Below, one piece after another: positions 3,197 through 54,920 of a stretch of DNA of 64,000 bases. Made by a program: the position numbers and the translations under genes. Location of the stretch: IMG/VR virus record IMGVR_UViG_3300021474_000004, positions 1-64,000 of that record; one strand, 5' to 3'. The notes beneath the pieces were generated by a model that saw only the letters and a program-made list of their open reading frames with translations, was not told the origin of the DNA and did no database searches. Numbering within the stretch: position 1 is the first letter of the stretch; each line of letters opens with the position of its first letter. Source of the DNA: a virus.

Positions 3197-3216
3197 CGTT
3201 TTAATTTTAAGTTAGT

Positions 3217-4404: not shown

Positions 4405-4429
4405 TCTGTTTTAGTTTAAGTATTATTAA

Positions 4430-24007: not shown

Positions 24008-24114
24008 TGGGCTGGCATAATTTTATTACAATCGTTGTAATGATAATTTTATTGTCCCTGTTCCTGGGAGCATACCTTAATAAAAAAGACGATGATGAAC
24101 AAGATAACCCTTAA
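24004..24114 (+). CDS. 36-residue membrane protein
   Basis: ATG at 24004: MMGWHNFITIVVMIILLSLF then an acidic end KKDDDEQDNP. One span, N-terminus out by charge rule. Its end overlaps the start of the next gene by about 23 bases. Confidence 0.5.
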   Translation: MMGWHNFITIVVMIILLSLFLGAYLNKKDDDEQDNP

Positions 24115-24757: not shown

Positions 24758-25038
24758 TGGGAACGCTGCAAGAATCTATTTTTATGCAACACAGGATGAC
24801 CATTATGCTTATGGATAAAGATGACCAGCCATCTGACGTGATACAGATAATGATTTTCACTGTACCTAATGCCTGTGTTGCAGACCTGGCGGATGGATAT
24901 GGATTATGGAATACCGATACTAATAAGGTGTTGTTGCTGGAAGAAAGATATATAGAGTTCCTGTCATGCAGGACACAAAAACAACAGGGAGAATTTTTTG
25001 CCAGGCTCACTAAGACATCCAGCAGGCTACTCGGTTAA
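24757..25038 (+). CDS. Hypothetical protein, 93 residues
   Basis: TAATG coupling to the previous gene. Beta-rich first half (MTIMLMDKDDQPSDVIQIM), helical second half. It is the last gene before the capsid block. Not recognised. Confidence 0.65.
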   Translation: MGTLQESIFMQHRMTIMLMDKDDQPSDVIQIMIFTVPNACVADLADGYGLWNTDTNKVLLLEERYIEFLSCRTQKQQGEFFARLTKTSSRLLG

Positions 25039-25096
25039 AAGATATTAACATTTTATATGTTTACATGACACTTTGTCAGTATGACATTTTGTCTGC

Positions 25097-25104
25097 TAAA
25101 TTTG
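25097..25104 (+). promoter_or_regulatory. Late promoter -7 box before the head genes
   Basis: TAAATTTG matches TAnnTTTG, 25 bases before the ATG at 25130. Just upstream, TGACACTTTGTC and TGACATTTTGTC form a direct repeat (about 25066-25092), probably a binding site for a late activator. Confidence 0.5.
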
Positions 25105-25129
25105 GGGTAACCAAAAATAGCTACACAAA

Positions 25130-26383: not shown

Positions 26384-26409
26384 TTTTTAACCCCTAAAGA
26401 AAACAACAA

Positions 26410-27666: not shown

Positions 27667-27752
27667 CTGTTTGTTTAGGTTTAAGTAACAGGGTGGGTTC
27701 CGTTCCATCCCATCCTGTTACCCACACCTTTATGATTTCACAACCAATCAAT

Positions 27753-28001
27753 ATGGCAAGCAAAGAAGGAATCTGTAACGTCTGTATAGACAAAGCGGAC
27801 AATGGCGTAACCCTATGCTGGGAAGTAAGGACTAAAAGACCTTCCGGCGGTAAGGGGACTTACGACACAATGGACATGAATTACGAATACAAGAAAGAGG
27901 TATATACTAAAAATGATATACCTAAAGCTCTTGAGCGTATTGAAGACCTCATTGAAGAAATGACAGGGGTAGAAAAAGCAGAAACAGAAGAAGAATATTA
28001 A
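27753..28001 (+). CDS. Small acidic virion-region protein, 82 residues
   Basis: Start taken at ATG 27753 (MASKEGICNVCIDKADNGV); an ATG at 27732 is also possible. Acidic, with Glu-rich C-terminal helix. It lies between the capsid and structural genes and may be a head decoration protein. Not recognised. Confidence 0.55.
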   Translation: MASKEGICNVCIDKADNGVTLCWEVRTKRPSGGKGTYDTMDMNYEYKKEVYTKNDIPKALERIEDLIEEMTGVEKAETEEEY

Positions 28002-28016
28002 AACCAAAACCAATTT

Positions 28017-28259
28017 ATGATACCATCAATAGGAAGAATCGTAATTTACAAACCTCGCGAAAAAGAACTCATCAAACTTGGCGGCAACCATGAAAACGGG
28101 ACAACCGAATGCCCTGCCATTATAGTTAATGTTTGGGGGGATACAGAGGATTCCTGTGCCAATCTTAAAGTGATAGGCGATTCGGATAGAAACATCTGGG
28201 TTACTTCTGCCTCGCAAGGTGAAGCGGAAGGCGAGTGGCATGAACCAACAAAAAAATAA
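28017..28259 (+). CDS. Small SH3-like virion-region protein
   Basis: 80 residues, with TECPAIIVNVWGDTEDSCANLKVIGD in two pieces, a pattern of small beta proteins frequently found among phage genes (CPAIIVNVW then NLKV and a WHE or WHP end). The leader AAACCAAAACCAA repeats the one of the next gene. Confidence 0.65.
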   Translation: MIPSIGRIVIYKPREKELIKLGGNHENGTTECPAIIVNVWGDTEDSCANLKVIGDSDRNIWVTSASQGEAEGEWHEPTKK

Positions 28260-28271
28260 AAACCAAAACCA

Positions 28272-29087
28272 ATGAAACTTTACGATAAAGACGACATCTT
28301 TGGTGGCGCAGAAGAAGCTCCAAGAGACCCACAGAAACAACCACAGAGACCGGGAGCGCCTGTAGAACAGGAAAAGCCAGCGTCCCCGGTAAAACATCTG
28401 ACCCAGAAAGAGGGAACTAACATCACCGATATTAAAGGTGTATTGGAAGCCCTTCGCGGCAACCCGGAACTGTTAGCTCAGTTCAAGACCCTTATGGGCA
28501 CCGGCGTCATTCCTTCCAATAATGATAACTATAATGACATTGACCTGGAAGACACGTTGGATGTCCCGGTTACTTTCTTTACCTATTGTATAGCTTATGT
28601 CACCCTGGATGATAAACGCTTTGGCAGGGAAGTAAAAAACCCGGCAGGGCGCAGGATAAACTTCAAGCATGTGCAGACCCTGCGTATTGCAGGTGGTCGC
28701 CCACGGGATGATAAGTGGATTCAGATTTCCACTTATACCACCTGGAGCAAGAAGGAAGCTATGTGGCTCGAAAGACATTCCAAGTTCAATGTGAAGTTCC
28801 ACAAGACTGTACAAAAGGAACATGCCGAAAACACAGAGCTTATGCTTGCACAGATGGAAGCCAGCTCTTACGTATCGGCGCTTGGTCAACATGAACTCCT
28901 TGCTGACTATAAAAACAATATCAACCCGGTACCTAACACAGACTTTGATTTTATGAAGAGCAAGGTATATGAATGGCATGTGAACCGCATCCTGGAGATA
29001 CACAAGAGAACACGCCAGGCTGTAGTACAGCAAACATTCAATACACTGGAGTCGCTCAACCCGGCAGGAAGCCCACAGCGCAAATAG
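28272..29087 (+). CDS. Structural-region hypothetical protein, 271 residues
   Basis: N-terminus Pro/Gln-rich and disordered, central part with LDVPVTFFTYCIAYVTLDDK and a basic ERHSKFNVKFHKTVQKEH helix. It lies between the capsid and the ring proteins. Ends in TAG. No family recognised. Confidence 0.65.
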   Translation: MKLYDKDDIFGGAEEAPRDPQKQPQRPGAPVEQEKPASPVKHLTQKEGTNITDIKGVLEALRGNPELLAQFKTLMGTGVIPSNNDNYNDIDLEDTLDVPVTFFTYCIAYVTLDDKRFGREVKNPAGRRINFKHVQTLRIAGGRPRDDKWIQISTYTTWSKKEAMWLERHSKFNVKFHKTVQKEHAENTELMLAQMEASSYVSALGQHELLADYKNNINPVPNTDFDFMKSKVYEWHVNRILEIHKRTRQAVVQQTFNTLESLNPAGSPQRK

Positions 29088-29145
29088 GCCGTGACTGTTT
29101 AGAAACAGTTTGATATAATCAGTTTATTAAATACTGTAGCTGCAA

Positions 29146-29153
29146 TAACTTTG
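29146..29153 (+). promoter_or_regulatory. Leaderless-type promoter box
   Basis: TAACTTTG matches TAnnTTTG; only CTTC separates it from the ATG at 29158. TTTA lies 19 bases upstream as a -33 partner. In Bacteroidota the start site is about 7 bases after this box, so the mRNA should begin at or next to the ATG. Confidence 0.65.
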
Positions 29154-29157
29154 CTTC

Positions 29158-29904
29158 ATGCCAATAGTTTGTCAGGATATAGTGAATCAGGTAGCTGCGG
29201 AGTTAGGGGCAGAAGGCAATGATTATTATTTGTGGACGAGGGATTACATGCCTGCCATAAAACTTGCTATCAAGGACATGGTGAAGGCTATCCGTGACAA
29301 GCTGGGCAGCAATTCCTTCACAGAGCAGGCGGCGCAGGAACTTAAGCAGAACATTATCTATCAGACCAATGCCTTTAGCCGGTTCAGGATTACGGATGAC
29401 ATATTTTCATTGGTTGCCGTCATACCAGAGCCTACTATGTCTCCATCTAATCCATCTATCACATCTGGCACTACTTCACAATCATTCAAGCGTACCGATG
29501 TGGCTTTCCTGGGGTCAACCCATACCGCTACACGCCAGACAGATAATGAGTTCTATCTTGGTCAGGGCAATCCTTTCCAGGACGGATTTGCACTGGAACC
29601 GGAAAGAAATATAAGGACATACTCTTATATTCTGTATGGTGATTCTACAGCAGGAAGCTATGCAGCAGGAGGAAGCGAAATAGGATTGAGTCCGGCTGTC
29701 AATGTTGGGTTTGTGGCTATATCCCAGCTCATCAATCCTACAGAGCCGGTAAATATTACGGACTCCATTCAGTTCCCAATGAACCTGAAAAGTATTATAG
29801 TGTTATTTACCAAACATCACATAACTTTTAAACCCTTAGATTCCAGTCAAATCAATTTAACTACAATGGATGAAATCACGCAAGCATTAAAAGCCTTTGA
29901 ATAA
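29158..29904 (+). CDS. Ring/connector-sized structural protein
   Basis: 248 residues with helices in the first third (DYMPAIKLAIKDMVKAIRDKL) and a Thr/Ser-rich beta part. Size and place between capsid and large tail protein suggest a head-tail connector or tail ring, inferred from order. The homing endonuclease gene follows directly. It is started by the leaderless promoter at 29146. Confidence 0.6.
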   Translation: MPIVCQDIVNQVAAELGAEGNDYYLWTRDYMPAIKLAIKDMVKAIRDKLGSNSFTEQAAQELKQNIIYQTNAFSRFRITDDIFSLVAVIPEPTMSPSNPSITSGTTSQSFKRTDVAFLGSTHTATRQTDNEFYLGQGNPFQDGFALEPERNIRTYSYILYGDSTAGSYAAGGSEIGLSPAVNVGFVAISQLINPTEPVNITDSIQFPMNLKSIIVLFTKHHITFKPLDSSQINLTTMDEITQALKAFE

Positions 29905-30547
29905 TGAAAAGAATAGAAATGATAGGACAAGTTTTTGAAATGCTAACGGTTATGGAATACGCTGGCAGCAAAAAGACAAGTACGTATTACTTATGCCAAT
30001 GCTCTTGCGGCAACAAAATAACAACAACTCGAAGATGGCTGATAAATGGTAGAGCTAAAAGCTGTGGGTGTAGTAAAAATAACTTTATATCCCGCTCAAA
30101 TACAAGGCACGGAGAATCGCAACCAGGAAAAAAGACAGTTGAGTACATGACATGGAATGGAATAAAAAATAGATGCTATAACGAAAAAGACCATAATTAT
30201 GACAAGTATGGGGGTCGTGGAATATCGGTATGCAGCAGATGGATTGAGAGTTATGATAATTTTTTATCCGATATGGGGAGACGTCCTCCTGGTAAATATT
30301 CATTAGATAGAATAGATAATAATAAAGGATACTCTCCAGATAACTGTAGGTGGGCTACAAATAAAGAACAGTCAAGAAATACAAGGACAAATAGAATCAT
30401 TGAATTTAAGGGTCAAGAAATGACCTTAACAGAATGGTCTGAAACATTAGGATTGAAAGTATTCACGTTAGCCATGAAATTAAAAAGTAAAACAATTCCA
30501 GAGATAATTAAAATTCAATCGCTCTGTAGAGCAGTCTAATGAAAAGA
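29902..30547 (+). mobile_element. HNH homing endonuclease insertion flanked by 11-base repeats
   Basis: The 11-base word TAATGAAAAGA occurs at both ends (29902-29912 and 30537-30547). Removing one copy and the DNA between joins the stop of the 29158 gene to the start of the 30539 gene by the same TAATG overlap used elsewhere. This suggests that the endonuclease gene was inserted at the junction of two structural genes without breaking either. Confidence 0.55.
29904..30539 (+). CDS. HNH/AP2-type homing endonuclease
   Basis: 211 residues. N-terminal zinc-like cluster (YLCQCSCGNKITTTRRWL and SCGCSKN, residues 30-55), then TWNGIKNRCYNEKDHNYDKYGG, GRGISVCSRW and the conserved SLDRIDNNKGYSPDNCRWAT (residues 132-151), which is typical of phage GIY/HNH-like free-standing endonucleases with an AP2-like DNA-binding part. 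Base composition is more AT-rich than its neighbours, a sign of separate origin. It probably spreads by cutting phage genomes that lack it. Confidence 0.85.
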   Translation: MKRIEMIGQVFEMLTVMEYAGSKKTSTYYLCQCSCGNKITTTRRWLINGRAKSCGCSKNNFISRSNTRHGESQPGKKTVEYMTWNGIKNRCYNEKDHNYDKYGGRGISVCSRWIESYDNFLSDMGRRPPGKYSLDRIDNNKGYSPDNCRWATNKEQSRNTRTNRIIEFKGQEMTLTEWSETLGLKVFTLAMKLKSKTIPEIIKIQSLCRAV

Positions 30548-31264
30548 GTTTCTTACAGATATTTAGCTTTTAGCTCTTTGGCTGCACTCAAGAAAGTGTT
30601 TGCCGATAGCGACATTAAGTTGCTCGACATTTTATTCTGGGTCAAGATGGCCGTCAACTCCGTTGTTGCCAAGACCCTTACCGGCAAGCCTCCTACCGGC
30701 TCCTATCTTGCCACCTTTACTAATGTTCCTGTTATCTATAATAATAAAGACAATGGCAGCCTGTTGTTCCGAAAAAAATACCTGTCCCTCCCGGCAAACA
30801 TATTTGACCTGCCACTGGACAATGCTATAGACTGGATGAACTTCCGTAATCCTTCCTTCATTCCTAATTGCGGGTGTAAAGAACATTTTACTTTTCAGCG
30901 CTCCACACTGGTTCAGATAAAGCTCATGTATGATACCGCTTTTGAAAAACCGGGCATAGAAGATAATTTCTATTTCGTAAGGGTCAACGACCTGTTATAT
31001 TTATTTGGAATAGAAGACGTGCAGGTCAAGGCGGTAGATATGGCAATAAGAACCTCAGTTAGTCCGTACATCAGCTCGATGACGCTGGACGATGAAGTAA
31101 TGCTTAATGACGAACAGGTTCTGGATGTCATCAGCAAAGTAGTCAGTATAGGGCGTTATGTCATGATGGTTCCAAAAGAAAGAGTGGAAGACGGAACGGA
31201 TACTACAGCTACGCCTCCAGGAAGGGTTATACAGCCGGAACAAACTGCCGGTATTGGACAATAA
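30539..31264 (+). CDS. Structural protein, second ring/connector candidate
   Basis: 241 residues. Helical N-terminus, then basic and aromatic segments (LLFRKKYLSLPANIFDLP) and a C-terminal Pro/Thr-rich tail. It follows the endonuclease by a TAATG overlap. Connector role is inferred from position. Confidence 0.6.
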   Translation: MKRVSYRYLAFSSLAALKKVFADSDIKLLDILFWVKMAVNSVVAKTLTGKPPTGSYLATFTNVPVIYNNKDNGSLLFRKKYLSLPANIFDLPLDNAIDWMNFRNPSFIPNCGCKEHFTFQRSTLVQIKLMYDTAFEKPGIEDNFYFVRVNDLLYLFGIEDVQVKAVDMAIRTSVSPYISSMTLDDEVMLNDEQVLDVISKVVSIGRYVMMVPKERVEDGTDTTATPPGRVIQPEQTAGIGQ

Positions 31265-31306
31265 AAGTAGTTAATAAAATTACTGTGAATAGATTGGCAG
31301 TCTGGA

Positions 31307-31314
31307 TAACTTTG
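31307..31314 (+). promoter_or_regulatory. Leaderless-type promoter box
   Basis: TAACTTTG with TCGTT before the ATG at 31320, the same arrangement and same box as at 29146. The two genes should respond to the same factor. Confidence 0.65.
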
Positions 31315-31319
31315 TCGTT

Positions 31320-32105
31320 ATGATTACAGTCAACGATTTTATTCCACTTGGGCAAATGCTGCGTGACGTAAGCACCCGCACTGGTGACCCTGAATATAAG
31401 AGCGGTCTTACCCGTGGATGGTACATCCAGGTGATAAGGGACGCCCTGGATTCGTTGGCTTTCTCAGGTTATCCGCAAAGGGTCACACTTGATTTTGATT
31501 TTCCTAAAGTAAGTTTCAGGATGGATTGGCCTAAAGGTGTATTTAACATACAGGAAGTATATGGTATCAACGGAGATGATTGCAGTGTTACCAATGCACA
31601 AAATATATATTGGAAAAGAGAGTTCAACCCTTTACCATACGGTAAAGGATATACAGCAGCGAGACAGGAATCAGGTAGCGCCAATGATGCCGCCAGCGAT
31701 ATAGTGAACACAGACCCTTTTAATGGAAAATTCTTTTCGTTCCTGGCAATGGAAGGAGAGACGCTCTATTATTTTAATGTACAGAATGGGGTATTGTTTT
31801 TTTCCAATACCTGTAGCACATTTGATAAAATACGTATAGTGTGTTCCGGTACCTACGGCGACATAGATAACCTCCCTTGCGTTCCAAGACCATTAAAGAA
31901 ATTTGTGATGGATTATGGTCGTCATGAGTTTTATATAGCTAAAGCAAATGAATCTCCCGGTTTATTAAAGATGGCAGAAAAGGCATATCAGGATATGTAT
32001 GACGTAAAAGTAGGAAGCTGGTGGCAGGCAATGAAATTTATGAAGTCTGTGGATAAGAAAAAGAATGAAGACCTGGATGAATATAACAGAAGGGGGAACT
32101 GGTAA
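31320..32105 (+). CDS. Third ring/connector candidate
   Basis: 261 residues. LGQMLRDVSTRTGDPEYKSG at the start, aromatic-rich middle (FRMDWPKGVFNIQEVYGI), and a C-terminal helix. Proteins of about 250 residues placed before the large tail gene in crAss-like phages form tail rings; I infer that role here and see no motif proving it. Confidence 0.6.
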   Translation: MITVNDFIPLGQMLRDVSTRTGDPEYKSGLTRGWYIQVIRDALDSLAFSGYPQRVTLDFDFPKVSFRMDWPKGVFNIQEVYGINGDDCSVTNAQNIYWKREFNPLPYGKGYTAARQESGSANDAASDIVNTDPFNGKFFSFLAMEGETLYYFNVQNGVLFFSNTCSTFDKIRIVCSGTYGDIDNLPCVPRPLKKFVMDYGRHEFYIAKANESPGLLKMAEKAYQDMYDVKVGSWWQAMKFMKSVDKKKNEDLDEYNRRGNW

Positions 32106-35100
32106 ATGAAACCTGTAAAATTTTCAGAAGAAGTCTGCGTATTCAGCAATGGTATAGGCTATACGGTTGATGCTGAGTACCTGGGTCTAATTACAGGTAA
32201 ACGTTACTATGACGCACTCAACATCCGTCTTCGGCAAAAGTCCGGTGTCAACTCAGGTGTCCCGGTTGCCATCAACGGAGAGCAGCTTAAGTATCCATTG
32301 ATTGTTCCTTATCACCTGGGGGGTGGGGGCTTTACCAGCGAGTGTATTGCCAACGCCTTCCTTCCCGCTCAACTATCCTATAAGTGTATCCTTGCCACAA
32401 TGGTACAAGGACACCTGTTTGAGATATGGGCAGATAAGGACAGAATCCTTCCTACATTTTTCAGGGCGGACGGTCATGTTGTTGCCGGTGGAAATGGGAA
32501 TCACACTATACCATTCTCTGTTGATTATCCTATACAATATTCTACAAACAATACACCTCTTGGCGGAGAAATTTTTCTTACCGATAACCATGTGGTTCCG
32601 CAGATATATGTAATAAGCGACATGCTTATCAATTCTGGTATTGACCTTGCCTCCGGCATTCGCACAGGGGCATGTACTGATAAATACTTTGCATCTTACA
32701 ACTACACAGATTATTCTATCAATACTGCCACACAGGCAGACCATCCTGTTTTTATAGAACTTGCAACTGCACAACCGGCAGGAAGTATTATACTTGGAAC
32801 CAGTGGGCTGTTCCCCGGAACCTATCAGTATTCTATTCAATACGTGGACTCACAAGGCAATACTACAGACTGGAGTGAACCTACACCAAATATCCCGGTA
32901 ATAGCTAATATAGATTCAGCAAACAGTAATACTTTTCCTTATTTACAGATGGTTGGAGCAGCGCCACAGCCGCTTGCCACAGAAGGTATAGGAATTGGTA
33001 TTCATATCCGTTTCAGGGTCACAAACATTAATAACTACAGCAGCATGAATATAAGACGGGTTGCTTATAATTCAGGTTCGCCTATAGGAACACAAGGCAC
33101 AGAGACTATTGTTTATCAATTTAATATTACGGCAGGCCAAATAGGCATTGTAGATATATTTGATTTTGGGGCTACAGGAACATCACTTACCGTAAGCGCA
33201 CAAAGAACAACGCAGGCGGTAATAGAGACAGCTAAAGGAATCCGGTACTATGACCGCACTCTTTATCTTGCTAATATTAATTATGCTTCCAGGGATGTAA
33301 GTGGTGTGACGTTTTTAACGTCCCCTGACACGGCATGGCCTGTGATGAAAAATATCGGAACCATTGGACATCACGACCCGTACAATTCTGTTTATTATAA
33401 ACACTTCATGAACCGGGAGCGTTATGGTTTTGGAGTAAAGTATATAGATGGATTTAATACCCAATCTTTTGTAGGAGCTTTTCCGGGCGCTGGCAACCCA
33501 ACCAATTACGGAGGAGCGTTTAATAATTATATGATGCCCAACCGCAGGGATACAGCTACTTCTATAAACAACTATAGCCAGGATGGGACTACAGTAACAG
33601 TAACAGCATCCGATGTAACCAATACGCCCAATCCTACATTTGAAATATTTGACATGAGTAATGCGGCATCAAAGAATGATACCATTACCTATAAAAATAT
33701 ATTTGCCACCGCATCTTCTTTTAATGTTAAGCCCACGAGCCAGATTACTATGTATAATGCCAATATAGGTGCCGGGGCTGTAAGCGGAAGTAATGTTGTT
33801 GCTCCGTATTATCCATTCACCCCCAAGAATGAGAACGACCCTGATGTATCGGGGCATAACTTTGTGGTTAACACTGCGGTTTATACCGGCATAGATAGTT
33901 TTGGGAACCCATTATCAAAAATATCACTACTCAGCACCCCGGCTTATCAACCGAAAGGGTTTGCACAACAGTATCTTACAATGGGAATGTCTATGGCTGG
34001 ACTTGCTAATATTCCATCATGGGTTTCTGCATTCTCTATACAGGTAACCCCTCCCGCCGGAAGAGTGGTAACACAGGGGATAGCATTCTATTCCCTTAAT
34101 GAAAATCCAACAACCCCAGGAGCAAGCGGAGCTACCAAAGACACCGATAAGATAGTATTCTACTCTCCTGATGCCGAGACAGGACTTACGCTCATGCAGG
34201 ATATTATAGACAATCCAAGTATATACAGCGTGGAGTTTATTTGCCCTCTTGGTTCATTCAGTGAAGTATATAGTTTTCGTATAGCGCAGGATGGAATTAA
34301 TTTCAGTGTACCTACATCTTACGCCGGGTACAATGTTGACATGGTTAATTATGCCAGGGTTTATTACGATAATTCTTTAATCAATACGGACGGGTTGACC
34401 CAAATTGGCAACGGTGACGGGTATGTTAATTTTGGCAGGTTTAGAAACGTTGCCTCTGCTGGCGGGTCTGTAGCAAACATTTTTAATAACTCCAATCCTG
34501 GCAATGCACAGGTAGGGGTAACAGGAGCTACTGCTGTAACTACTAAATCAGGCAGGCAAACATTCTATAAGATTCAATTAGATGCACCTCTATACAGTAC
34601 CGGCTCTCCCGGAAGTAATATAGACGCTGCTTATGGAACAACTAATCTAAAGAGGTTCACAGAGCCTTTTTATATTGTTAACATAGTTCGCAAGGATGCT
34701 GTTGTTGACACTTCTGTTAACCAGACACAATATGTTTCAACAGGGCACTATCAGAAAATATCATCTATCATAGGTCAATCAAACGGTGCCGCAAAGCAAT
34801 CATTTTTGCTGGTAGACGAAAATCCAGGAGACTGCATTGTAAAAAACGGGACGGATATAAAATACATCTGGATAGAAGACATTAACGGGAACCAGTTGCC
34901 GTGGGTAAATATTTCTATGGCAGGAACGGGGTCTTTTACACTGGCTAATATATTTGGAGATATAGCTAATGGTACCAATAACTCAGGAGCTAACCCAACC
35001 AATATATTAGCAGGAGTTTATTCCCAATCCATTACGCAGGTGAATGGCCTGGATAGATTTTATACTATAATATTTGAATCCATACCGGGACAGAACCAGG

Positions 35101-37214
35101 CTTATTGTATTCCAACCGGAGGGTACAACATACTTGTTAATTATGATAACAGATTCCCGGTAACCTGTTTTGGCGATAATATAAATGGGGACGCCGTTTG
35201 GGCTCCTATAGATGGAAGTGTTGGTAACGGCGGAGATGCAGAACAGCTATCTCCTGTAGCCTCTGACCATCCGGGAAACTTTAACCTGGACATAGGATTC
35301 CCTTACTTTCATTATGAATGTAACCCCAGGCTGTATATACCTAATTACCTGGGGGGAGGGTCTATTCCTTCCGGCGCTCCGTGGATACAACAGCTAAACT
35401 CAACGGCACTTCACCTCATCAGGCAAATGCTTAATGTATTTACCTGTTCTTCCAAGACACATGTACCATATTGTTTTAACGAGTTACAGGTGACTGCCAA
35501 TTACGGGAACCAATACTTTCCTCTTATGAATTATGTAATGAGGTCAAGCAACTGGGACGCCTCTGTGACAGATGTGTCTACCACACAACTTGCAGGCGGA
35601 TATTATTCTACCGATTACCTTGATGAGTTCTCTGCCGGAACTTCACCTCATTTTAAAATACAGAACTGGATTTATGGTGGCTTCCGTTTCAAACAGTCTA
35701 CTCTCAATTGGAATATAGATTACTCAGAAGGAGAAGTAAATTTTCCTTCCTTCGGTCGTCCGGTAGTAGGATATAATCCACAAACATTTTTCCCAACCAG
35801 GAGTGTTTGGTCTGTTCAAAGACAGATTAATGACATTAACGACCCTTCGCTTCGCACTTTCCCTGCATTAAACTACAGGGACATTGATGATAACACCGGG
35901 GAAATAAAACTATTATACTCCGCCCAGAGTGCAGGCCGTGGCGATAACCTGTATGCCTTTACAGAGCATGGCATTTGTTTACTGATGACTGACAAGTATG
36001 TGGTGAGGCAGGGGGCAGGAACTGATTGGACGGTAGTGCAGGGGAGTGGGGATGAGGCGGTAATGCTGGAAGAGTGGCTGCACCGCGATATTGGATTAGG
36101 TGATGAGATGTGGCGCAGTTTTGCAGAACATGATAATGTTGCCTGGTTTGCCAACAAGCAAAGTATTTATAAATTTGAAAATGAAAAGGCGCATGATATT
36201 GCAATGCCCTATTTTCACTGGAGGTACCAGCAGGACATACTGGATAATATGCGCCCTGGTTTTCTGTCAGACCTCACAGGGTTCTACGACATCTATCATG
36301 GAGAATATTGGCTATCCTATAAGGACAGAACTTTTACCTGTTACGGAACAGGAACGTATGAAATACAATCCCCGGTAAACTACAATGGGCTGTATTATCA
36401 AATAGATGGAGAGTTAGGTGCTGTATTATTGCCCACTCCCCAATATGCAATAGAACAATTGTTTATTTACAATAATACAAACTCTCCTGTTCAGGTGCAG
36501 TTTTTCAGTGGAACAATATATCCTACTTTATGTTTTATAGCGCCCCAGATGTACCGCTCCTTTAATATATACGGGTATGGCAGTAATCTTACAAATCCTT
36601 TCTTGTGGGAGTGTTCGCCGGATGATATTGCATGGAGCGACTCACTTCTCAATCCGATTGTCCTTGTATGGCAGGACGAACCGGATACCGAAGAGCGTGG
36701 CAAATGGGTGAGCCGGTTTACTTATGAATTTGACAAGTTCGCTTCCGATAATAATAATTCGTATGGGTTCAGAAATGTTATATCGGGACAGGGTGGAGCA
36801 TGGCAGCTTGACCGTGGTAACCAGATAAACGGAGCGAATGTGGCGGCAGAGATTACCGGGTTTTGTACAGGAGATAATCATATCCGCATTCAATACGGAG
36901 CCGAAGCAGAGCAGCCTTATTCTAAGGAGTTTCATAAATTGAGAATCAATGGTAATGTCAAACCTACGCGCATTGAGTTCTTCCAACATTCAGACCAGGT
37001 AGATAATGATGCCCCTGTTTGTTTCCTGGATATTTCTACAGATTCCCTGTACCTGAAAGACTACTACGGATTTGAGGCTCTTATACCACGCAAGAGTGCA
37101 AGCCCAAATGACAGGCTACAAGGAAGGATGCTTTATTACAAAATAAAATACAATGGAGGAAGTCCACTTTTCCGTGTGACAGACTCAGTTGTCTCATTCC
37201 ATAAGATTAAATAA
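32106..37214 (+). CDS. Very large tail (muzzle/stabilisation-like) protein
   Basis: 1702 residues, beta-rich throughout. The C-terminal third (about residues 1230-1420) has repeated FTEHGI, VRQGAG, WLHRDIGLGDEMW, AWFANKQSIYKFEN and HDIAMPYFH segments, the look of a beta-propeller like those in P22 gp10-type tail-stabilisation and crAss-like muzzle proteins. It starts 1 base after the previous stop. It would form the tail end that contacts receptor-binding proteins. The domain assignment is by pattern, so moderate. Confidence 0.65.
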   Translation: MKPVKFSEEVCVFSNGIGYTVDAEYLGLITGKRYYDALNIRLRQKSGVNSGVPVAINGEQLKYPLIVPYHLGGGGFTSECIANAFLPAQLSYKCILATMVQGHLFEIWADKDRILPTFFRADGHVVAGGNGNHTIPFSVDYPIQYSTNNTPLGGEIFLTDNHVVPQIYVISDMLINSGIDLASGIRTGACTDKYFASYNYTDYSINTATQADHPVFIELATAQPAGSIILGTSGLFPGTYQYSIQYVDSQGNTTDWSEPTPNIPVIANIDSANSNTFPYLQMVGAAPQPLATEGIGIGIHIRFRVTNINNYSSMNIRRVAYNSGSPIGTQGTETIVYQFNITAGQIGIVDIFDFGATGTSLTVSAQRTTQAVIETAKGIRYYDRTLYLANINYASRDVSGVTFLTSPDTAWPVMKNIGTIGHHDPYNSVYYKHFMNRERYGFGVKYIDGFNTQSFVGAFPGAGNPTNYGGAFNNYMMPNRRDTATSINNYSQDGTTVTVTASDVTNTPNPTFEIFDMSNAASKNDTITYKNIFATASSFNVKPTSQITMYNANIGAGAVSGSNVVAPYYPFTPKNENDPDVSGHNFVVNTAVYTGIDSFGNPLSKISLLSTPAYQPKGFAQQYLTMGMSMAGLANIPSWVSAFSIQVTPPAGRVVTQGIAFYSLNENPTTPGASGATKDTDKIVFYSPDAETGLTLMQDIIDNPSIYSVEFICPLGSFSEVYSFRIAQDGINFSVPTSYAGYNVDMVNYARVYYDNSLINTDGLTQIGNGDGYVNFGRFRNVASAGGSVANIFNNSNPGNAQVGVTGATAVTTKSGRQTFYKIQLDAPLYSTGSPGSNIDAAYGTTNLKRFTEPFYIVNIVRKDAVVDTSVNQTQYVSTGHYQKISSIIGQSNGAAKQSFLLVDENPGDCIVKNGTDIKYIWIEDINGNQLPWVNISMAGTGSFTLANIFGDIANGTNNSGANPTNILAGVYSQSITQVNGLDRFYTIIFESIPGQNQAYCIPTGGYNILVNYDNRFPVTCFGDNINGDAVWAPIDGSVGNGGDAEQLSPVASDHPGNFNLDIGFPYFHYECNPRLYIPNYLGGGSIPSGAPWIQQLNSTALHLIRQMLNVFTCSSKTHVPYCFNELQVTANYGNQYFPLMNYVMRSSNWDASVTDVSTTQLAGGYYSTDYLDEFSAGTSPHFKIQNWIYGGFRFKQSTLNWNIDYSEGEVNFPSFGRPVVGYNPQTFFPTRSVWSVQRQINDINDPSLRTFPALNYRDIDDNTGEIKLLYSAQSAGRGDNLYAFTEHGICLLMTDKYVVRQGAGTDWTVVQGSGDEAVMLEEWLHRDIGLGDEMWRSFAEHDNVAWFANKQSIYKFENEKAHDIAMPYFHWRYQQDILDNMRPGFLSDLTGFYDIYHGEYWLSYKDRTFTCYGTGTYEIQSPVNYNGLYYQIDGELGAVLLPTPQYAIEQLFIYNNTNSPVQVQFFSGTIYPTLCFIAPQMYRSFNIYGYGSNLTNPFLWECSPDDIAWSDSLLNPIVLVWQDEPDTEERGKWVSRFTYEFDKFASDNNNSYGFRNVISGQGGAWQLDRGNQINGANVAAEITGFCTGDNHIRIQYGAEAEQPYSKEFHKLRINGNVKPTRIEFFQHSDQVDNDAPVCFLDISTDSLYLKDYYGFEALIPRKSASPNDRLQGRMLYYKIKYNGGSPLFRVTDSVVSFHKIK

Positions 37215-37235: not shown

Positions 37236-37985
37236 ATGCCAGCAGCAGATTTAGGAACAACCCTTAGTACACTTGATGCCTTTGCCCCACTTGCCGGTAA
37301 CATGATTGATACCGGGTTACAGGCAGGGCTTGGCGCTTACCAGTTACTATATGCCAATAAATTAAAACGGCAGGCAAATGCACTTTTCCCTACTTCTGTA
37401 GACCCGCAGGAACAGCAATACAACCAGGAATTAAATTCTATACGCAAGGGTAGTTATAGCGGTGCTTCTTATGCCAACGCCATACGGAGCCTGCGTACAC
37501 AGCAGATGAACTCAGGGCGTGATATAGTGGCCAAAGCTGGCGGGTATGGTGGTGGCGCTATTGCAGGGCTTGCCTTAAATGCGGGAGAGGCAGATGATGC
37601 CTATGGCAAGATAGCCTCAACGTTAAGCCATGACCTGATGGGATACCAACAGATGTATGGAGCCAGTACAAATAGTATGGTTAAACGCAGGGCTGACCTG
37701 GACATGATGAAATATGGACAGGCAGAAGCAGATTATCGCGAAGATAAAGCAGCCGGATATTCCAATTTCTTTGGAGCCACGGCAGGCAAGGGAATACAAG
37801 ATGTGAATTTTAAGAATATAGCCACTGCGTTAACAGCAAACAAAAGACCTCCGGTTCAAGGCGAGGACTACGGAATAGCAGATGATGGTACCCAGCCTCC
37901 TGTTATGAACGCTCCTATGCAGTCTTACGGGACAGAAGCGGATAACATGCAATCTCCTTACGCGGCATACAATCCCTATCACTAA
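37236..37985 (+). CDS. Internal virion protein, small
   Basis: 249 residues, rich in Ala/Gly/Gln/Tyr, with GYGGGAIAGLALNAGEA and a membrane-like stretch near residue 90. Such composition and place (after the tail protein, before two larger ones) resembles internal/cargo virion proteins. A weak box TAACTTTA stands 16 bases before the start. Ends by TAATG overlap. Confidence 0.6.
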   Translation: MPAADLGTTLSTLDAFAPLAGNMIDTGLQAGLGAYQLLYANKLKRQANALFPTSVDPQEQQYNQELNSIRKGSYSGASYANAIRSLRTQQMNSGRDIVAKAGGYGGGAIAGLALNAGEADDAYGKIASTLSHDLMGYQQMYGASTNSMVKRRADLDMMKYGQAEADYREDKAAGYSNFFGATAGKGIQDVNFKNIATALTANKRPPVQGEDYGIADDGTQPPVMNAPMQSYGTEADNMQSPYAAYNPYH

Positions 37986-39781
37986 TGGCTGACGATTTAA
38001 AATATAATGACATAGGGGAAGACCAGGTAGAAGACTCTAATGACTCAGAGGTAATTACCGGGCAGGACACCCCTGCGGAAGCATACGGTGCCGGTGTCGC
38101 CGCTTACCAGCAGGCTGCAAGAAAAAATAAAGACAACGGCTCAACTCCGTATAGCCCCATAGCCGCAGCCCTTTCCAGAACACGCAACAGTGCGCAACAG
38201 ATTCCGGGAGTCCCCGGAAGTATTTCTACAGACCCTGGTACACCAGGGATAACAAGAGACCAGGCATATCCTTCCGCTCCTGTAAGGATGCAGGATTTGC
38301 CGGGAAGGTATTTTGGTGCCACTCCTATATTTCTTGGTGGCCAGCCACTGTATCCTGTATCATTGGAAGAAGCCCGTAGGCGTTCCAATAATGATTACAT
38401 GGCGTCACAGGAACAGGCAAGGCAACAGAATGAAAACACGCTGTTCACAAATCTTACAAGGCAAAAGGTAGCCCCTGCATACCAGGAAAAGGCGGATAAG
38501 ATGCTGGATGACCTTTATGATGATTACTCAAAAACATTTGCGCAGAAAGGAAGATATGGTGCAGTAGCCGCTTATAACGACCCTAATAGCCCTGAGTTCA
38601 AAGAGTTTACACAGAAGTACCATAACTACCTGCAATCTACAGAGGCCATCAATCACATGGACACTCTTTTGTCGCAGGCGCAACAACGTCCACCCGATGA
38701 ATTATCCCCCGCTACCAAAGCCCAAATTATAAAATTCCAGACCGGAGGGTTTATGAACCCGGACGGCACTGTTGATACACAGACCCTACAAAAGTCTTAT
38801 GTTGACCTGGCTAAATATATGGGCTATGATGGTATTATAAAAAGCATTGCACCCTATATAGCAAAGGATAGTGAATCATTTTTCCAGCAAGGAGCCAAAG
38901 ATGCAAACGGGAAAGAAATATCTCCTCTTGATAATGACCACCAGTTTATAACAGAGGTTAAGAAAAATCCAAATTGGGACAAGCTCATTGATAGTAAGTA
39001 TGTTCCTATGCTGCTTAGTCATGCCGGATTAAACCCTGCTCTCAATGACCCTAAAGCAGCGCACGATTATCTTAAGCAGATACTTCCTGAGTTCGTAGAA
39101 AAGCATTTCTATGATGTGCAAAGGTCTTCTGCAAGTGCCGGAGAAAATAAGGTGGCCAATGAAGGTAATTGGGTAGTTGATTTTGCCAACCAGGTAAGAG
39201 GCAGTAATGTAGATGGAGCCGTTCACACCGGCGGAGAAAATGATAACAACCCTCGCGGTGTGATGATGCAGGCTCCGGGAGACATGTCTACCAATATCAC
39301 TAATCCTAATTTCTTAAAATATATTGTAACAGGACAGGATGCCAACGGCAACGCTATTACAGCCCAGGACACCCGCAAAACAATAGTTAATCCTATATCC
39401 GGTTTATGGAAGGACAATTCCACCGGAGATATATATAAAGTTCCTGCTGCTGCCAAAAATCCAACTACAGGAGATATTGATTGGGGGCAGGTACGCACTC
39501 CGGCTAATAAAGTAACTAATATGTGGACGGATGTAATAGTTCCGTATTACAGAAGTGTAGGAGGGACTGGGGCAGAAACTAAATTGACCCAGATTCAAAA
39601 GAAAATGTGGACACAGCAACCGCAGGAAGCACAGGCTCTTGGTATTCCTCCACTCCCTAAAGGTGGAAATGCAGCCCCGGCAGCATCTGCCCCGGCTAAA
39701 ACTATAGTAAGAACAGGAGTTGACAAGACAGGGAAAAAAGTAGTTCAATATTCAGACGGTACTGTAGGATATGCCCAATAA
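37985..39781 (+). CDS. Internal virion protein, middle
   Basis: 598 residues. Acidic N-terminus, Pro-rich region (ASIPG-type PGVPGS, TPGITRD), then a helical body. No enzymatic motif visible. Likely ejected with the DNA or structural, inferred from place in the block. Overlaps the next gene by 11 bases. Confidence 0.6.
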   Translation: MADDLKYNDIGEDQVEDSNDSEVITGQDTPAEAYGAGVAAYQQAARKNKDNGSTPYSPIAAALSRTRNSAQQIPGVPGSISTDPGTPGITRDQAYPSAPVRMQDLPGRYFGATPIFLGGQPLYPVSLEEARRRSNNDYMASQEQARQQNENTLFTNLTRQKVAPAYQEKADKMLDDLYDDYSKTFAQKGRYGAVAAYNDPNSPEFKEFTQKYHNYLQSTEAINHMDTLLSQAQQRPPDELSPATKAQIIKFQTGGFMNPDGTVDTQTLQKSYVDLAKYMGYDGIIKSIAPYIAKDSESFFQQGAKDANGKEISPLDNDHQFITEVKKNPNWDKLIDSKYVPMLLSHAGLNPALNDPKAAHDYLKQILPEFVEKHFYDVQRSSASAGENKVANEGNWVVDFANQVRGSNVDGAVHTGGENDNNPRGVMMQAPGDMSTNITNPNFLKYIVTGQDANGNAITAQDTRKTIVNPISGLWKDNSTGDIYKVPAAAKNPTTGDIDWGQVRTPANKVTNMWTDVIVPYYRSVGGTGAETKLTQIQKKMWTQQPQEAQALGIPPLPKGGNAAPAASAPAKTIVRTGVDKTGKKVVQYSDGTVGYAQ

Positions 39782-42700
39782 TAAAAAACCAGACCCGCAG
39801 GATATACAGTGGGACGCTCCGCATCCAAGTGATGTAACCTGGGATACACCCGCCACACCCCAGCCAGCTCCTGCCATGCCTGCACCTGCCCAGCAGGGAG
39901 GCAACATTGTACCTATGTGGTCTCATCAACAGGAGCCTGCACCTAATGCGCCGCTTGCATCTACTAACTATGGCGTGTCAGAAACAAATCAAAATGCACC
40001 TGCGCAGCCCCCTTTAGAGTCTTCGGTTCCCGGTCAGCCAGATGCAACAGACAAGGCTCTTAAAAGGGCTAACGATTTTATAGACCAGGCGTCTGAGTTT
40101 TTACCGGAAGGAAATGTAAAGGATGTATCAACGCTGGCAGCAAAAGGTGCATTAGGAGCTGTCCAACAATTTAAGCAAGGTTCAGAACAGGTAGCACAGG
40201 CCGGAGGTGTTCAGCAGGGAGCACAAGCTATTCCCACTTCGCAGAATGCACAGGTAGAACAGGATGCCTCAAAAGAAAATGTCGCATATAGTGGCGTAGC
40301 CACAATCGTAGGTCTTGGCAAAATGCTTATGGGCGTAGGGGCTCTTACTGTACCTGAAATTAATGCCTGGAACTATGGGTCTGCGGCATTGGCACAGTCC
40401 TCTCCGGGCGTAGCCACTCAGGTTAATAACTTCTTTTCTTCTAAAGCAGAAGATGACCCAAATTCTCCCAACTTCGGTAAGGTGATTATTCCTACAGGGG
40501 CGGCTCCTATAATCCTTGACTCTAATAAGCCGGGACAAAAAGCTGTCCTGGAGTTCCTTGATTTCCTTCCGCAGTTAGTACTTGGTGGTATGATTGCCGA
40601 AGGCGTTTCGGTAGACCAGGCAAACGAAATAGCATCCAAGATTAAAAAAGGAGAGGTGCTCACCCCGCAGGAAGATGCCATTGCCGCAAAAGGAACACAA
40701 ACATATCTGTCAGACCCTAAGAATATTATCACCAATGAGACCCTGGGCAAAATAAAGCCCGACCTGTCAGATGGTAAGAAGGTAGCCGTGGCTCCTCTTA
40801 TTGAACAAAAGCAGGCACTGGAACAACGTAATGTAGGGCTACTTGAGTCTAAGGGCAAACTGGATTCTTCTTTTCATGATGACGTGGATAAAGAAGTTGC
40901 CGATAACGAGAAACAAATAGCTACCTTAACCCAACAAATAAAAACTAAGGCAAATGAAAAAGAAACTACGCCAGGCACTGCGCAAGGTGCCAATACCCAA
41001 GCCGACAACAGACCCGGCGAGAGCCAAGAGGGAGAAGGAGTGGGACAGCAGCAATTACAGGGAGGAGTACAAGGACAACAGCCTGGAGCAGATACAGGCA
41101 CCCAACCTGATACCCAAGAAACTGTTGCGTCGAATGAAAAACCAGGGATAATCAATGCCCCTACAAAGCAAACGTCAGATGCGCTGGATGTTCAAGAACC
41201 ATCCGCAGATGGCAAAGGAATGGGCGTCGGAGACACCCAACCTCAAGGAACTACCGGAAAAGAAGAAGGTAGCGGAAACGCTAAAGGCGCACCGAAAGAA
41301 GAAATAAAACTGGAGTCACATCCTGGTTTTGAAGCCCCTGACCTCAAGGACTATGAAGGGAAAGATTCAGACCTGTTCCCGGAAAGGGAATGGGCTAACA
41401 ATCCTGACCGCGTTACCATGCGTGATGGCAATGAAGTAGGAACAACTTTCCGACAACTGGCCAAGCAGACCCAGGATGGAATGAAAGATGTTAAGGACAA
41501 TGCGCCTGATAACACTCTTATCACCACTCATTCCAAGAATGGCAGGATGATTAATGCCTTAAGAAAAGTGGGTGATGATATAGACCTGGATAGTGATGAA
41601 GGAATAAAAAAAGTAGCTAAGGCATATCTTGCAGAACCCGATATAGAAAAGGGGGAGCCCCAAACCACAAAACTTGATAATGGAAAAACAGTGCATGTCG
41701 CTATGCACGGAACTACCGAGGACGACCTGAAAGATTTTAATTCCGGGCAGAGTCCAGTTAATCTTTCTAAGGAAGGCATCAAGGACAGCAAGGATACAGC
41801 ACAGGCAGTTGAAGATAAAAACATAAGCCATATTATCAGCTCTCCTACAGAGAGGGCAATGAAGACGTCTAAGATTATCCAGGAGCATCTTAATAAACAG
41901 ATAGCTGAACAGAAATCCAAAGAGCCTGTCATGTCCGCAGAGGACTTTGATAAACAAGGGCTCAACTACGGCCTACAGGAAGATGGTACACGTATGGAAC
42001 CTGAGTTAAACATCAAGTTCAAAAAACCTATTACCAACAACCAGATGCGCCGCATCAACGAGGTGATGGATTTACCTAAAGGCGCATTATCCGAAGATGG
42101 TAAGGAGCTTACTATAACCAACGATTCTAAAACAAAGACCCATGACCAATTCATTGCCGACGTCGCAGTCCTCAAAAACAAACTCAATGAGTTCAAGCGA
42201 GTTCCAACAGAAATTAACCAACGTGTTAGGAGACTGGCTTCCGAAGTTGAAGGGGGCACCGAAGCTGCTACACAGCCAGAAACCGGCAACAAGCCAGCCG
42301 AAACTGAACCAGCAAACACCAACACAGTCAATACCGGCAGTGAAGGCGGACAACCTGAACCAGTCCCCGGCGAACCCACTGGGACAACTGACGCCGCCAG
42401 ACCAAACCAAGAATCAGAACCTGTAACACAGGCTGCTGGCTTTGCCGGTGGCGCAGAGCCTCCACAACCACCAGATGTGACAAGAGAGGGAGTATATGAC
42501 GATACGCCTGACTATAATAAATCTTCTTCACCTGTACAGGATTTCCTTAATGATACAAGAAGCGCCCCTAAGTTTGAACGAGATATAGCACAGAATGTAA
42601 AACAGCTCAACGGTATCAATAAGGCCAATACGCTCCGCGCTGTGAAGCTCATGGAAATGCTGCCGGATAAATTTAAAGACCCGGTACTCCAGGAGAATGT

Positions 42701-45047
42701 ATATCACCACATGGAAGACCCAACACTGACACTTACCGCAGACGAGATGGAGTTCAGGGATAAATATGTGGTTCCGGTGCTTAATGAGATTCAAGGGCTG
42801 TATCGTAAACTGGAAAAAATAGACCCTGAATCTGCGGCGGCGGCAATGAAAGATGCTGTTAATTATTTCCCGCGTCTGGCTAAAGACAAGCAGGGAATCA
42901 TTGACCGTATAATAAATGGAACTAAATACATAACCGGCGGCGGCTTATTAGGTAAAACAGCATCTTCTCTTAAAAGCCGTATTTATAAAGCCCTTACAGA
43001 TAATAATGGCAACAGGACGCTTGTAACTATGAAGGATGGAAGGGTTACGGCTTTGCATGGATTTGACGAAGATGGCAATTCTGTAACACAAGACCTGGGT
43101 GGATTTAAAAGAAGTGATAAAGGTCTTAGTACAAAAGAACTGAGAGATAAACAACTTAATGATGACCTGGGCTATGATAAAAAGATGGGCAAATTACAGG
43201 CGGAGAAGAAAAATATCCAACGCTTCGCTGATGACCCTAAAGGACAAAGAAGGCTTGATTACATTGAGAAGAAAATTAATGACCTCAATGCAGCGAAAGA
43301 CAAGATAAATGAACATTATGACGGTGTGCAAAAAGTAGATGACCTTAATGCAGAACGCACAGACCTTCGCAATTCATTAATTACTATAAAGGATAAAGAG
43401 CAAAGACAACAAGTGCAGGCTCGTATTGCAGACCTTCGGAAACAATCAGAAGACCTGGAAAACCAGATGCCTAAATACTGGGTAGACAAAAACGGTAAGT
43501 TTTATTCTATAGGTGAAGCTACAACCAAAGAGATTGAAGAAAAGTCCCCTACTCAATATTATCATACCCCATTTGCAAACGTGATGTCATCCTATCTTGA
43601 CTTACAGAGGGCTGACACAGCAAATACATTTATTGACCACTTTAAAGAATCTCCAGAATTTAGTAAGATAGGCGTTCCTAAAGGCGACAAAACGGTTCCG
43701 GGAGATTGGCGCGAGGTATTACCTATACAATTTAAAGGATATGTTTTCGACCCTAAAACGGCGGCTAACTTAGATTTACTTTATCGCAATGGTAAAGCCG
43801 ACCCACTTCAATCCCTTACTAATATAAATACATTCTTTCGGGATACTATAGTGCTTGGGCCGGGCGTAAAGCACTGGTATAATATTGCTGACCAATGGAT
43901 AAAACAGGGAGGTTTAGTTACAAGGTTAACTAACCCGGTACGCACCACTAAGGCCATGATGAAAGCGTTCCATGATGTATCTACGCAGAGCCCGGATTAT
44001 TTTAAAGCCCTTGAGAATGGAGCAGGGTTAATGTACCGGGAAACGCAGGACGCTTCTAACCTGCTGCTTAAAGTAGCGCTGGAGCAAAAGAATCAGACAT
44101 GGTTCCAGAAGCTATCTGACAAGATGGGGTATGCTAATCCAGAAACATTATTTGAAGCACTTCGCAGCACTTCTCATAAATCTGCATTTTACGTAAATGA
44201 TATGTTGGTTATGCAGGCTATAAACGAAGAGGTTGCAAAAGGTAAGCCGTGGAGCGAAGCTGTAAAGGAGGTTCATAAATATCTGCCGGATTACCAGATA
44301 CCGGCTCAGGTGCTTGGCAGCGAGAACCTTGCAAAAGTCCTTCGCAACCCCAACCTGTTAACATTCGGCTCTTACCATTATAACATCATGGACTCATACG
44401 CTAATATGGCAAACGACCTGGGCAGGGCAATGAGTAATTCAGGTATGAGTGCTGCAGATAGGGGGCTTGCTGTCGACCGGGTGGCCACTGCTGCATTTAT
44501 GCACTTTGCTTTCTATGCAGGACTTACGGCTCTGTATCATGCTGTTGGGGGAGATAAGGATAAAAAGATAGGGTCTTCCGGTGGCACTAAGTTCATGGAT
44601 GATGCTATAGATTTCATTAAAGGGAATAAGAATTTAAGACAGTTTGTTCAGGGGTATTTCATGCCAGCCGTAGGAACACAGGCTGCCGCAGAGCTGATAA
44701 CCAATACCAAATTATCTCCTTACGAATCCGGTAATATATATACCCCCACCGATGTAAACAACCATCCCGGCGAAGCGCTTAAAGATATAGGCAAATACCT
44801 TGAAACTAAAGTAGCACCACAGACATCACAGCTACAAAGCGGCAAACAGACCGCCGGTGATTTTATACAAGACCAATTACTCAATACAAAAATTGACCGT
44901 ACCGACCAGGAGCAGAAGTTTATGCAGCTCCTTCATGAAAGAGACCAGATAAACCAGAAGGTACATGACCTTAAGAAAAAGGGGAAGTATTCGGAGGCCA
45001 CACAACTTCAACAACAGTATAACCAGGACTTGAATAATGCCAGGTAA
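39771..45047 (+). CDS. Giant internal virion protein with permuted histidine-phosphatase-like domain
   Basis: 1758 residues. Residues 1-130 are Pro/Ala/Gln-rich, 190-320 membrane-like and helical, 370-550 low-complexity. Residues about 550-720 carry phosphoglycerate-mutase-type motifs in swapped order: LITTHSKNGRMINAL (His587) comes first, then VHVAMHGTTEDD (His646), LSKEGIKDSKDTA and IISSPTERAMKTSKII (Arg695). The first Arg of the RHG motif is Met. The last 700 residues are helical and resemble large virion proteins that enter the host (segments FFRDTIVLGPGVKHW, LMYRETQDASNLLLKVA). The phosphatase part is by my own motif reading. Confidence 0.6.
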   Translation: MPNNKKPDPQDIQWDAPHPSDVTWDTPATPQPAPAMPAPAQQGGNIVPMWSHQQEPAPNAPLASTNYGVSETNQNAPAQPPLESSVPGQPDATDKALKRANDFIDQASEFLPEGNVKDVSTLAAKGALGAVQQFKQGSEQVAQAGGVQQGAQAIPTSQNAQVEQDASKENVAYSGVATIVGLGKMLMGVGALTVPEINAWNYGSAALAQSSPGVATQVNNFFSSKAEDDPNSPNFGKVIIPTGAAPIILDSNKPGQKAVLEFLDFLPQLVLGGMIAEGVSVDQANEIASKIKKGEVLTPQEDAIAAKGTQTYLSDPKNIITNETLGKIKPDLSDGKKVAVAPLIEQKQALEQRNVGLLESKGKLDSSFHDDVDKEVADNEKQIATLTQQIKTKANEKETTPGTAQGANTQADNRPGESQEGEGVGQQQLQGGVQGQQPGADTGTQPDTQETVASNEKPGIINAPTKQTSDALDVQEPSADGKGMGVGDTQPQGTTGKEEGSGNAKGAPKEEIKLESHPGFEAPDLKDYEGKDSDLFPEREWANNPDRVTMRDGNEVGTTFRQLAKQTQDGMKDVKDNAPDNTLITTHSKNGRMINALRKVGDDIDLDSDEGIKKVAKAYLAEPDIEKGEPQTTKLDNGKTVHVAMHGTTEDDLKDFNSGQSPVNLSKEGIKDSKDTAQAVEDKNISHIISSPTERAMKTSKIIQEHLNKQIAEQKSKEPVMSAEDFDKQGLNYGLQEDGTRMEPELNIKFKKPITNNQMRRINEVMDLPKGALSEDGKELTITNDSKTKTHDQFIADVAVLKNKLNEFKRVPTEINQRVRRLASEVEGGTEAATQPETGNKPAETEPANTNTVNTGSEGGQPEPVPGEPTGTTDAARPNQESEPVTQAAGFAGGAEPPQPPDVTREGVYDDTPDYNKSSSPVQDFLNDTRSAPKFERDIAQNVKQLNGINKANTLRAVKLMEMLPDKFKDPVLQENVYHHMEDPTLTLTADEMEFRDKYVVPVLNEIQGLYRKLEKIDPESAAAAMKDAVNYFPRLAKDKQGIIDRIINGTKYITGGGLLGKTASSLKSRIYKALTDNNGNRTLVTMKDGRVTALHGFDEDGNSVTQDLGGFKRSDKGLSTKELRDKQLNDDLGYDKKMGKLQAEKKNIQRFADDPKGQRRLDYIEKKINDLNAAKDKINEHYDGVQKVDDLNAERTDLRNSLITIKDKEQRQQVQARIADLRKQSEDLENQMPKYWVDKNGKFYSIGEATTKEIEEKSPTQYYHTPFANVMSSYLDLQRADTANTFIDHFKESPEFSKIGVPKGDKTVPGDWREVLPIQFKGYVFDPKTAANLDLLYRNGKADPLQSLTNINTFFRDTIVLGPGVKHWYNIADQWIKQGGLVTRLTNPVRTTKAMMKAFHDVSTQSPDYFKALENGAGLMYRETQDASNLLLKVALEQKNQTWFQKLSDKMGYANPETLFEALRSTSHKSAFYVNDMLVMQAINEEVAKGKPWSEAVKEVHKYLPDYQIPAQVLGSENLAKVLRNPNLLTFGSYHYNIMDSYANMANDLGRAMSNSGMSAADRGLAVDRVATAAFMHFAFYAGLTALYHAVGGDKDKKIGSSGGTKFMDDAIDFIKGNKNLRQFVQGYFMPAVGTQAAAELITNTKLSPYESGNIYTPTDVNNHPGEALKDIGKYLETKVAPQTSQLQSGKQTAGDFIQDQLLNTKIDRTDQEQKFMQLLHERDQINQKVHDLKKKGKYSEATQLQQQYNQDLNNAR

Positions 45048-54829: not shown

Positions 54830-54902
54830 TGCGGTGTAGAGCAGTTGGTAGCTCGTCAGGCTCATAACTTGAAGGCCGGTGGTTCGAGTCCACTCACCGC
54901 TA
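54830..54902 (+). tRNA. trnM: tRNA-Met (anticodon CAT)
   Basis: Acceptor TGCGGTG pairs with CACCGCT at six of seven positions; the first pair is a T-T mismatch. D-arm GAGC-AGTTGGTA-GCTC, G26, anticodon arm TCAGG-CTCATAA-CTTGA, variable AGGCC, T-arm GGTGG-TTCGAGT-CCACT are canonical. The 1-72 mismatch recalls initiator tRNA, but the anticodon stem lacks the three G-C pairs of initiators, so elongator Met is as likely. No CCA is encoded. Confidence 0.85.
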
Positions 54903-54920
54903 CAACTAAACTAAAAACGA

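Follow-up and report, generated by a model that had tools for sequence, protein, structure and literature searches.

Evidence for a circularly permuted histidine-phosphatase domain in a presumed cargo protein of a phage distantly related to crAss-like phages

Histidine phosphatases have one of the most widespread of all enzyme folds, and the phage domain described here would show where that fold tolerates re-cutting. The fold (SCOP c.60) has a sheet of order 324156 with strand 5 antiparallel, and its strands 5 and 1 are adjacent and antiparallel. Residue roles have been assigned in a solved family member: phosphate is bound by R8, R58, and H149 and accepted by H9, E82 probably donates the proton, and N15 assists; N15 and E82 vary between families (PMC12051542). 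RosC, the AFP phosphatase of roseoflavin biosynthesis, belongs to this superfamily and has an N-terminal extension that lets a sequential structure alignment begin ahead of strand 1; that extension is a domain-swapped helical lid, not a permutation (PMC12051542). Searches of the open literature turned up no histidine phosphatase that is permuted in nature.

The five crAss001 cargo proteins gp45-gp47, gp49, and gp50 are present in virions and are expected to enter the cell partly unfolded (PMC10172136). Injected polyvalent phage proteins carry enzymes of other kinds, and the survey that describes them makes no mention of phosphatases in its main text (PMC5512222).

The virus record considered here is 72,112 bases long, and the window, the whole stretch of DNA that was analyzed, covers 64,000 nucleotides of it. 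One long gene in this window encodes a protein in which Pfam, PHROGs, and NCBIfam together recognize a single known domain, His_Phos_1 being its sole Pfam match above cut-off. Its layout is as follows.

39771..45047 (+): 1758-aa gene, an open ORF for a large multi-part protein, presumed to be a virion cargo protein
40971..41285 (+): low-complexity linker preceding the domain, residues 401-505 (78% G/P/Q/T/E/N/S in 401-450)
41322..41918 (+): whole circularly permuted histidine-phosphatase domain, residues ~518-716, delimited by profile tests of both halves and an AlphaFold2 model
42171..42470 (+): low-complexity linker following the domain, residues 801-900, identified by composition

What automatic annotation sees is the first half of a branch-1 histidine phosphatase, which is unambiguous at residues 646-713 as a matter of sequence: PF00300 (His_Phos_1) matches there with E 1.4e-12 and 48.1 bits (cut-off 21.7), aligning profile positions 6-73 of 194. 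The nearest NCBIfam model for this half is alpha-ribazole phosphatase CobC (E 1.5e-10, far below its cut-off), and NCBIfam matches lie in this same half alone, with no convincing Pfam match elsewhere in the 1758-aa protein. A permuted domain explains why such annotation sees a truncated half, and the remainder of the family's sequence appears to lie upstream.

41688..41918 (+): former N-terminal half, residues 640-716, with VHVAMHGTT (His646), the LSKEGI..S helix, SSPTERAMKTS (Arg695), and strand 3
41322..41675 (+): former C-terminal half, residues 518-635, with DYEG (canonical WEG) at 527-530 and GTT at 557-559 replacing GES; within it lie beta4, LITTHS with His587, and beta5, QTTKL
41676..41690 (+): tight turn (DNGK), residues 636-640, from former strand 5 to former strand 1; the corresponding strands of the model are 631-634 and 640-645

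For a comparison set, ordinary histidine phosphatases were gathered from 80 genome loci, of which 71 were kept, and 6 others were added, giving 77 canonical proteins. The profile of these proteins has just two matches in the 1758-aa protein, and their order is swapped: columns 105-152 at residues 539-589 and columns 9-77 at residues 646-714. When the profile was rotated between columns 79 and 91, it instead aligned as a single stretch over residues 539-714 and scored about 51.7 bits, whereas the best canonical stretch, which is the first half, scored 45.7. Globally aligned, residue 520 corresponds to canonical column 80, and the first-half match brings column 77 to residue 714; the circle is therefore complete, running from column 80 to the end and then from 1 to 77, once.

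At the level of sequence, the similarity of the second half to the canonical family is modest. If residues 640-716 were the sole phosphatase remnant, a truncated first half with chance similarity upstream, there would be no permuted domain at all; this reading would account for the best Pfam stretch being the first half, for the lack of any significant Pfam match when the upstream segment was run alone, and for the low score of the upstream half within a whole-protein search, just 4.8 bits with E 1.1 scaled to 1000 sequences, which would be insignificant in a large search. Against it, a profile of the canonical C-terminal halves alone gives 12.9 bits on residues 526-637, a score reached by 0 of 5000 shuffles (best shuffle 6.4) and by no other natural 112-aa tile (best 3.9 among 300 tiles and 7.8 among 1686). 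Profile comparison by hhalign gave the upstream segment a probability of 88.6-89.3% (score 36.7), whereas none of 60 shuffles exceeded 11.8% (score 21) and none of six other segments from the 1758-aa protein exceeded 1.2%; a further profile-comparison run gave 83.9% with a slightly different alignment. The histidine of the canonical second halves also falls on His587 when those halves are aligned unguided. Together with the completed column circle and an upstream part that folds confidently in prediction without homologues, these results make a truncated remnant very improbable. A mixed alignment of canonical halves (A4) was dropped, its fragments having been misplaced by MAFFT.

The predicted structure points the same way. 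An AlphaFold2 model built with homologue rows for the first half only reached a mean pLDDT of 75.6 and a pTM of 0.68, and residues 555-635, practically without homologous rows, were modeled at pLDDT 83-93. Its elements match those of the alpha/beta histidine-phosphatase fold, and the superposition on solved structures covers the first half only: Foldseek matched that half to solved family members with prob 1.00 at 1.2-1.9 A over 69-74 columns, and VIA-align matched the same part with Z up to 7.2 and an rmsd of 4.2 A over 87 aligned residues. Since sequential programs cannot follow a permutation, a match restricted to the first half is what a permutant should give. For the structure-prediction check proposed in the earlier note, the outcome was a confident model with matching elements and a first half that superposes on the family, the second half being missed by the sequential aligners. 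Two other structural results were set aside. A single-sequence model was too poor (pLDDT 52.7) for its fold matches (Z <=3.2) to carry meaning, and macrodomain-like Foldseek matches, with rmsd mostly of 6-10 A, were judged to be sequential chance matches of the permuted sheet, the His/Arg motifs pointing elsewhere.

Strand topology offers a separate line of support. Because strands 5 and 1 of the family lie side by side and antiparallel, a permutation would need a tight turn between them, and such a turn is predicted at residues 636-640. The new ends lie in the loop past strand 3, right before the L-x-E..FG.WEG segment (here FEAPDLKDYEG). No strand 6 of the canonical fold was seen in the domain. 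Separate tests of each half, the structure prediction, and the strand topology all support the permuted domain, and we regard it as very probably a real circular permutation of a branch-1 histidine phosphatase. The earlier note had proposed that the halves stand in reversed order, and the profile matches, hhalign, shuffles, AlphaFold2 model, and strand topology all bear this out; its motif positions were likewise correct, placing His587 (41529-41531) in LITTHSKNGRMINAL, His646 (41706-41708) in AMHGTTEDD, and Arg695 (41853-41855) in SSPTERAMKTS. Its limits for the domain, residues 574-710, were too narrow, and residues ~518-716 replace them.

What this domain could do depends on a phosphate pocket in which some positions are kept and others are changed.

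41331..41333 (+): Glu521, candidate general acid (E82), off the canonical position by one residue when aligned globally
41529..41531 (+): His587, second catalytic histidine (canonical H150), placed by profile, hhalign, and unguided alignments
41703..41705 (+): Met645, replacing the invariant Arg of RHG (R in 77/77 canonical sequences)
41706..41708 (+): His646, expected phospho-accepting histidine (H9), placed by Pfam and profile alignment
41724..41726 (+): Asp652, replacing the pocket Asn (N15; N in 77/77 canonical sequences)
41853..41855 (+): Arg695, second phosphate-binding arginine (R58), placed by profile alignment

Three of the 4 core residues are thus kept (His646, Arg695, and His587). 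RHG has become MHG, as had been noted earlier, with Met645 aligned to the arginine found in every canonical sequence; the change of Asn to Asp652 is a second pocket substitution, absent from that earlier list. Between them, Met645 and Asp652 remove one positive charge from the pocket and add one negative charge. The GES motif is replaced as well, reading GTT with Thr558, and its conserved partner Arg is Gln566.

Compared with branch 1 (PF00300; the CobC, PhoE, GpmB, and HFP types), the domain has in common the motifs of both halves, both catalytic histidines, the second arginine, and the types of strand and helix. It differs in its swapped halves, in the changes of Arg to Met, Asn to Asp, and GES to GTT, in the strand 6 that was not seen, in its setting inside a 1758-aa protein, and in scoring below every subfamily cut-off. 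Both half-sequence matches of branch 1 are present, in reversed rather than canonical order, and the phospho-accepting histidine, second catalytic histidine, and second phosphate-binding arginine are present. We accordingly treat the domain as a superfamily member by descent and not as a canonical catalytic member, because the RHG arginine is Met645.

Loss of the invariant arginine makes activity uncertain, and judging from these residues, weak or altered catalysis and no catalysis at all seem about equally probable. With Met645 and Asp652 in the pocket, the expectation would be weak or re-targeted phosphoryl transfer via His646, or binding without turnover, rather than the activity of an ordinary efficient phosphatase. 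If catalysis has been lost and the fold kept, the domain would be a permuted pseudophosphatase that binds a protein or phosphorylated ligand, or merely a structural module of a virion protein. We take this to be a real possibility that falls somewhat short of an even chance: the RHG arginine, whose counterpart R8 binds phosphate (PMC12051542), and the pocket asparagine are both gone, a methionine and an acidic residue stand at the phosphate site, and GES and its conserved arginine are lost, but His646, Arg695, and His587 have been kept despite very deep divergence, which would be unexpected without selection on the site. At the other extreme, the protein could be an ejected phosphatase of ordinary efficiency that, as infection begins, dephosphorylates a host phosphoprotein or a nucleotide or sugar-phosphate signal, by analogy with other enzymes carried by injected polyvalent proteins (PMC5512222). 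The three kept core residues and a cargo-like gene position would suit such an enzyme, but the Arg-to-Met and Asn-to-Asp changes do not, and both packaging and substrate are putative; we consider it unlikely. Since the nearest subfamily models, CobC among them, lie far below their cut-offs, no substrate can be named.

Whether the protein enters a host cell at all has to be judged from the genes around it. The phage is an unclassified, distant relative of gut crAss-like phages. Its portal shares 24.6% identity with that of the crAss-like phage cr10_1 (E 2e-5 in a phage collection and about 1e-10 in direct comparison), and a 417-aa protein at 25130 matches cr10_1 gp62 with E 1.1e-5 when a small number of sequences were compared directly. 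The orders of both the head genes and the tail genes resemble those of cr10_1, and two genes upstream of the 1758-aa gene belong to this parallel.

32106..37214 (+): 1702-aa gene, placed where crAss-like phages have gp35, a virion structural protein; its C-terminus is weakly similar (E 0.039)
37985..39781 (+): 598-aa gene directly upstream, with an 11-nt overlap with the 1758-aa gene, in the position of crAss-like gp33 (594 aa)

The 1758-aa gene lies past the tail and muzzle-like genes, as the cargo genes do in cr10_1, and it resembles Crassvirales cargo (crAss001 gp45-gp50; cr10_1 gp32-gp34) in gene position, in large size, and in the 11-nt overlap ahead of the last large gene, shared with cr10_1 gp33/gp32. 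Unlike Crassvirales cargo, it has a phosphatase domain, and the word "phosphatase" is absent from the main text of the crAss001 atlas (PMC10172136). Compared with the cr10_1 proteins encoded at the cargo position (gp32-gp34), the protein gave no significant sequence match, and so we infer its cargo role from position; for the same reason we do not class it as a member of Crassvirales cargo, position suggesting a like role only. The earlier description of a virion protein injected with the DNA is thus plausible on crAss-like gene order. Judged by this analogy, the 1758-aa protein is probably ejected. The protein could instead work inside the cell that produces the phage, perhaps in assembly or as an enzyme expressed late, and the positional basis of packaging together with the missing sequence match to the cr10_1 cargo-position proteins would allow this, but the parallel in gene order past the tail and muzzle-like genes makes it rather unlikely. 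The protein is also like polyvalent proteins (PMC5512222) in being very long, in carrying an enzyme-type domain between low-complexity linkers, and in its likely delivery with DNA, the last by analogy; no LPD or other polyvalent Pfam domain was found in it. Polyvalent proteins combine two or more disparate domains in a single polypeptide with a phage packaging context, and Pfam, PHROGs, and NCBIfam recognized one known domain here.

Taken jointly, these observations lead us to lean toward a true permutant, carried in an ejected cargo protein, whose early target is a phosphorylated ligand. Strand 5, at the old C-terminus, would have been fused to strand 1, at the old N-terminus, via the short DNGK turn, and fresh ends would have opened in the loop past strand 3. 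The 1758-aa protein would most likely be packaged in the virion, pass through the tail partly unfolded, and refold in the host, where the refolded domain may act early on its phosphorylated ligand. Were it ejected, the protein would extend the set of proteins that phages bring into the cell by a domain that handles phosphoryl groups. A more far-reaching version, which we regard as improbable in its entirety, is that this is the first naturally permuted histidine phosphatase, delivered by the virion, with its phosphate pocket rewired (Met for Arg, Asp for Asn) and its new ends next to the active site, which would leave its activity on a phosphorylated host signal under the control of linker, ejection, and refolding.

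The arrangement appears to be rare. In tblastn searches of 50,697 phage and 72,556 plasmid records with the whole protein and with the domain, only weak canonical first-half matches were found. Scans of viral contigs found no relative of the domain, the domain pair alignment, the C-terminal part, or the portal, terminase-like, or capsid-like protein, and a genome scan with the domain found none either, in both cases under a requirement for near-exact short peptides that distant relatives could escape. As no relative of the 1758-aa protein was found, the swapped order is seen in one sequence only. The permuted model matched 355 of 395 Bacteroidota genomes, and the matches listed were all of ordinary order, either essentially the first half only or somewhat longer, mostly by stop read-through, with no contiguous permuted domain among them. 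A second, canonical phosphatase copy was sought in the phage and not found.

Several other features of the record deserve mention. The portal and parallel head gene order, with no close relatives, may mark a deep-branching crAss-like lineage (24092-32105, 56552-58783; L002:6005-8458); the terminase-like gene is assigned by motifs only, and the RNA polymerase motif DFDGD was not found in the long frames of the phage. A 300-aa gene at 8018-8920 (-) gives a nearly full-length match to the isocyanide synthase family DIT1_PvcA (Pfam E 4e-65) and a match below cut-off to an NCBIfam L-tyrosine isonitrile synthase (E 1.4e-32). A tblastn search with this PvcA-like gene found no relative in 50,697 phage records, and a phage-borne isonitrile synthase would therefore be unusual. 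Directly upstream on the same strand, a 315-aa gene at 8949-9896 (-) without a family match could encode a partner enzyme. At 3595-5176 (-), a DUF7873 protein (E 2.7e-35) adjoins a ParB-like partition protein (phrog_12305, E 4.7e-34). Two tRNA-like genes lie at 3215-3289 (-) and 54830-54903 (+); the anticodon of one is incompletely called, and the other is a tRNA-Met (CAT). At the extreme end of the record, L002:11783-12112 holds a long repeat coding for alanine-valine dipeptides (VAVAVA...), which may be a low-complexity assembly end.
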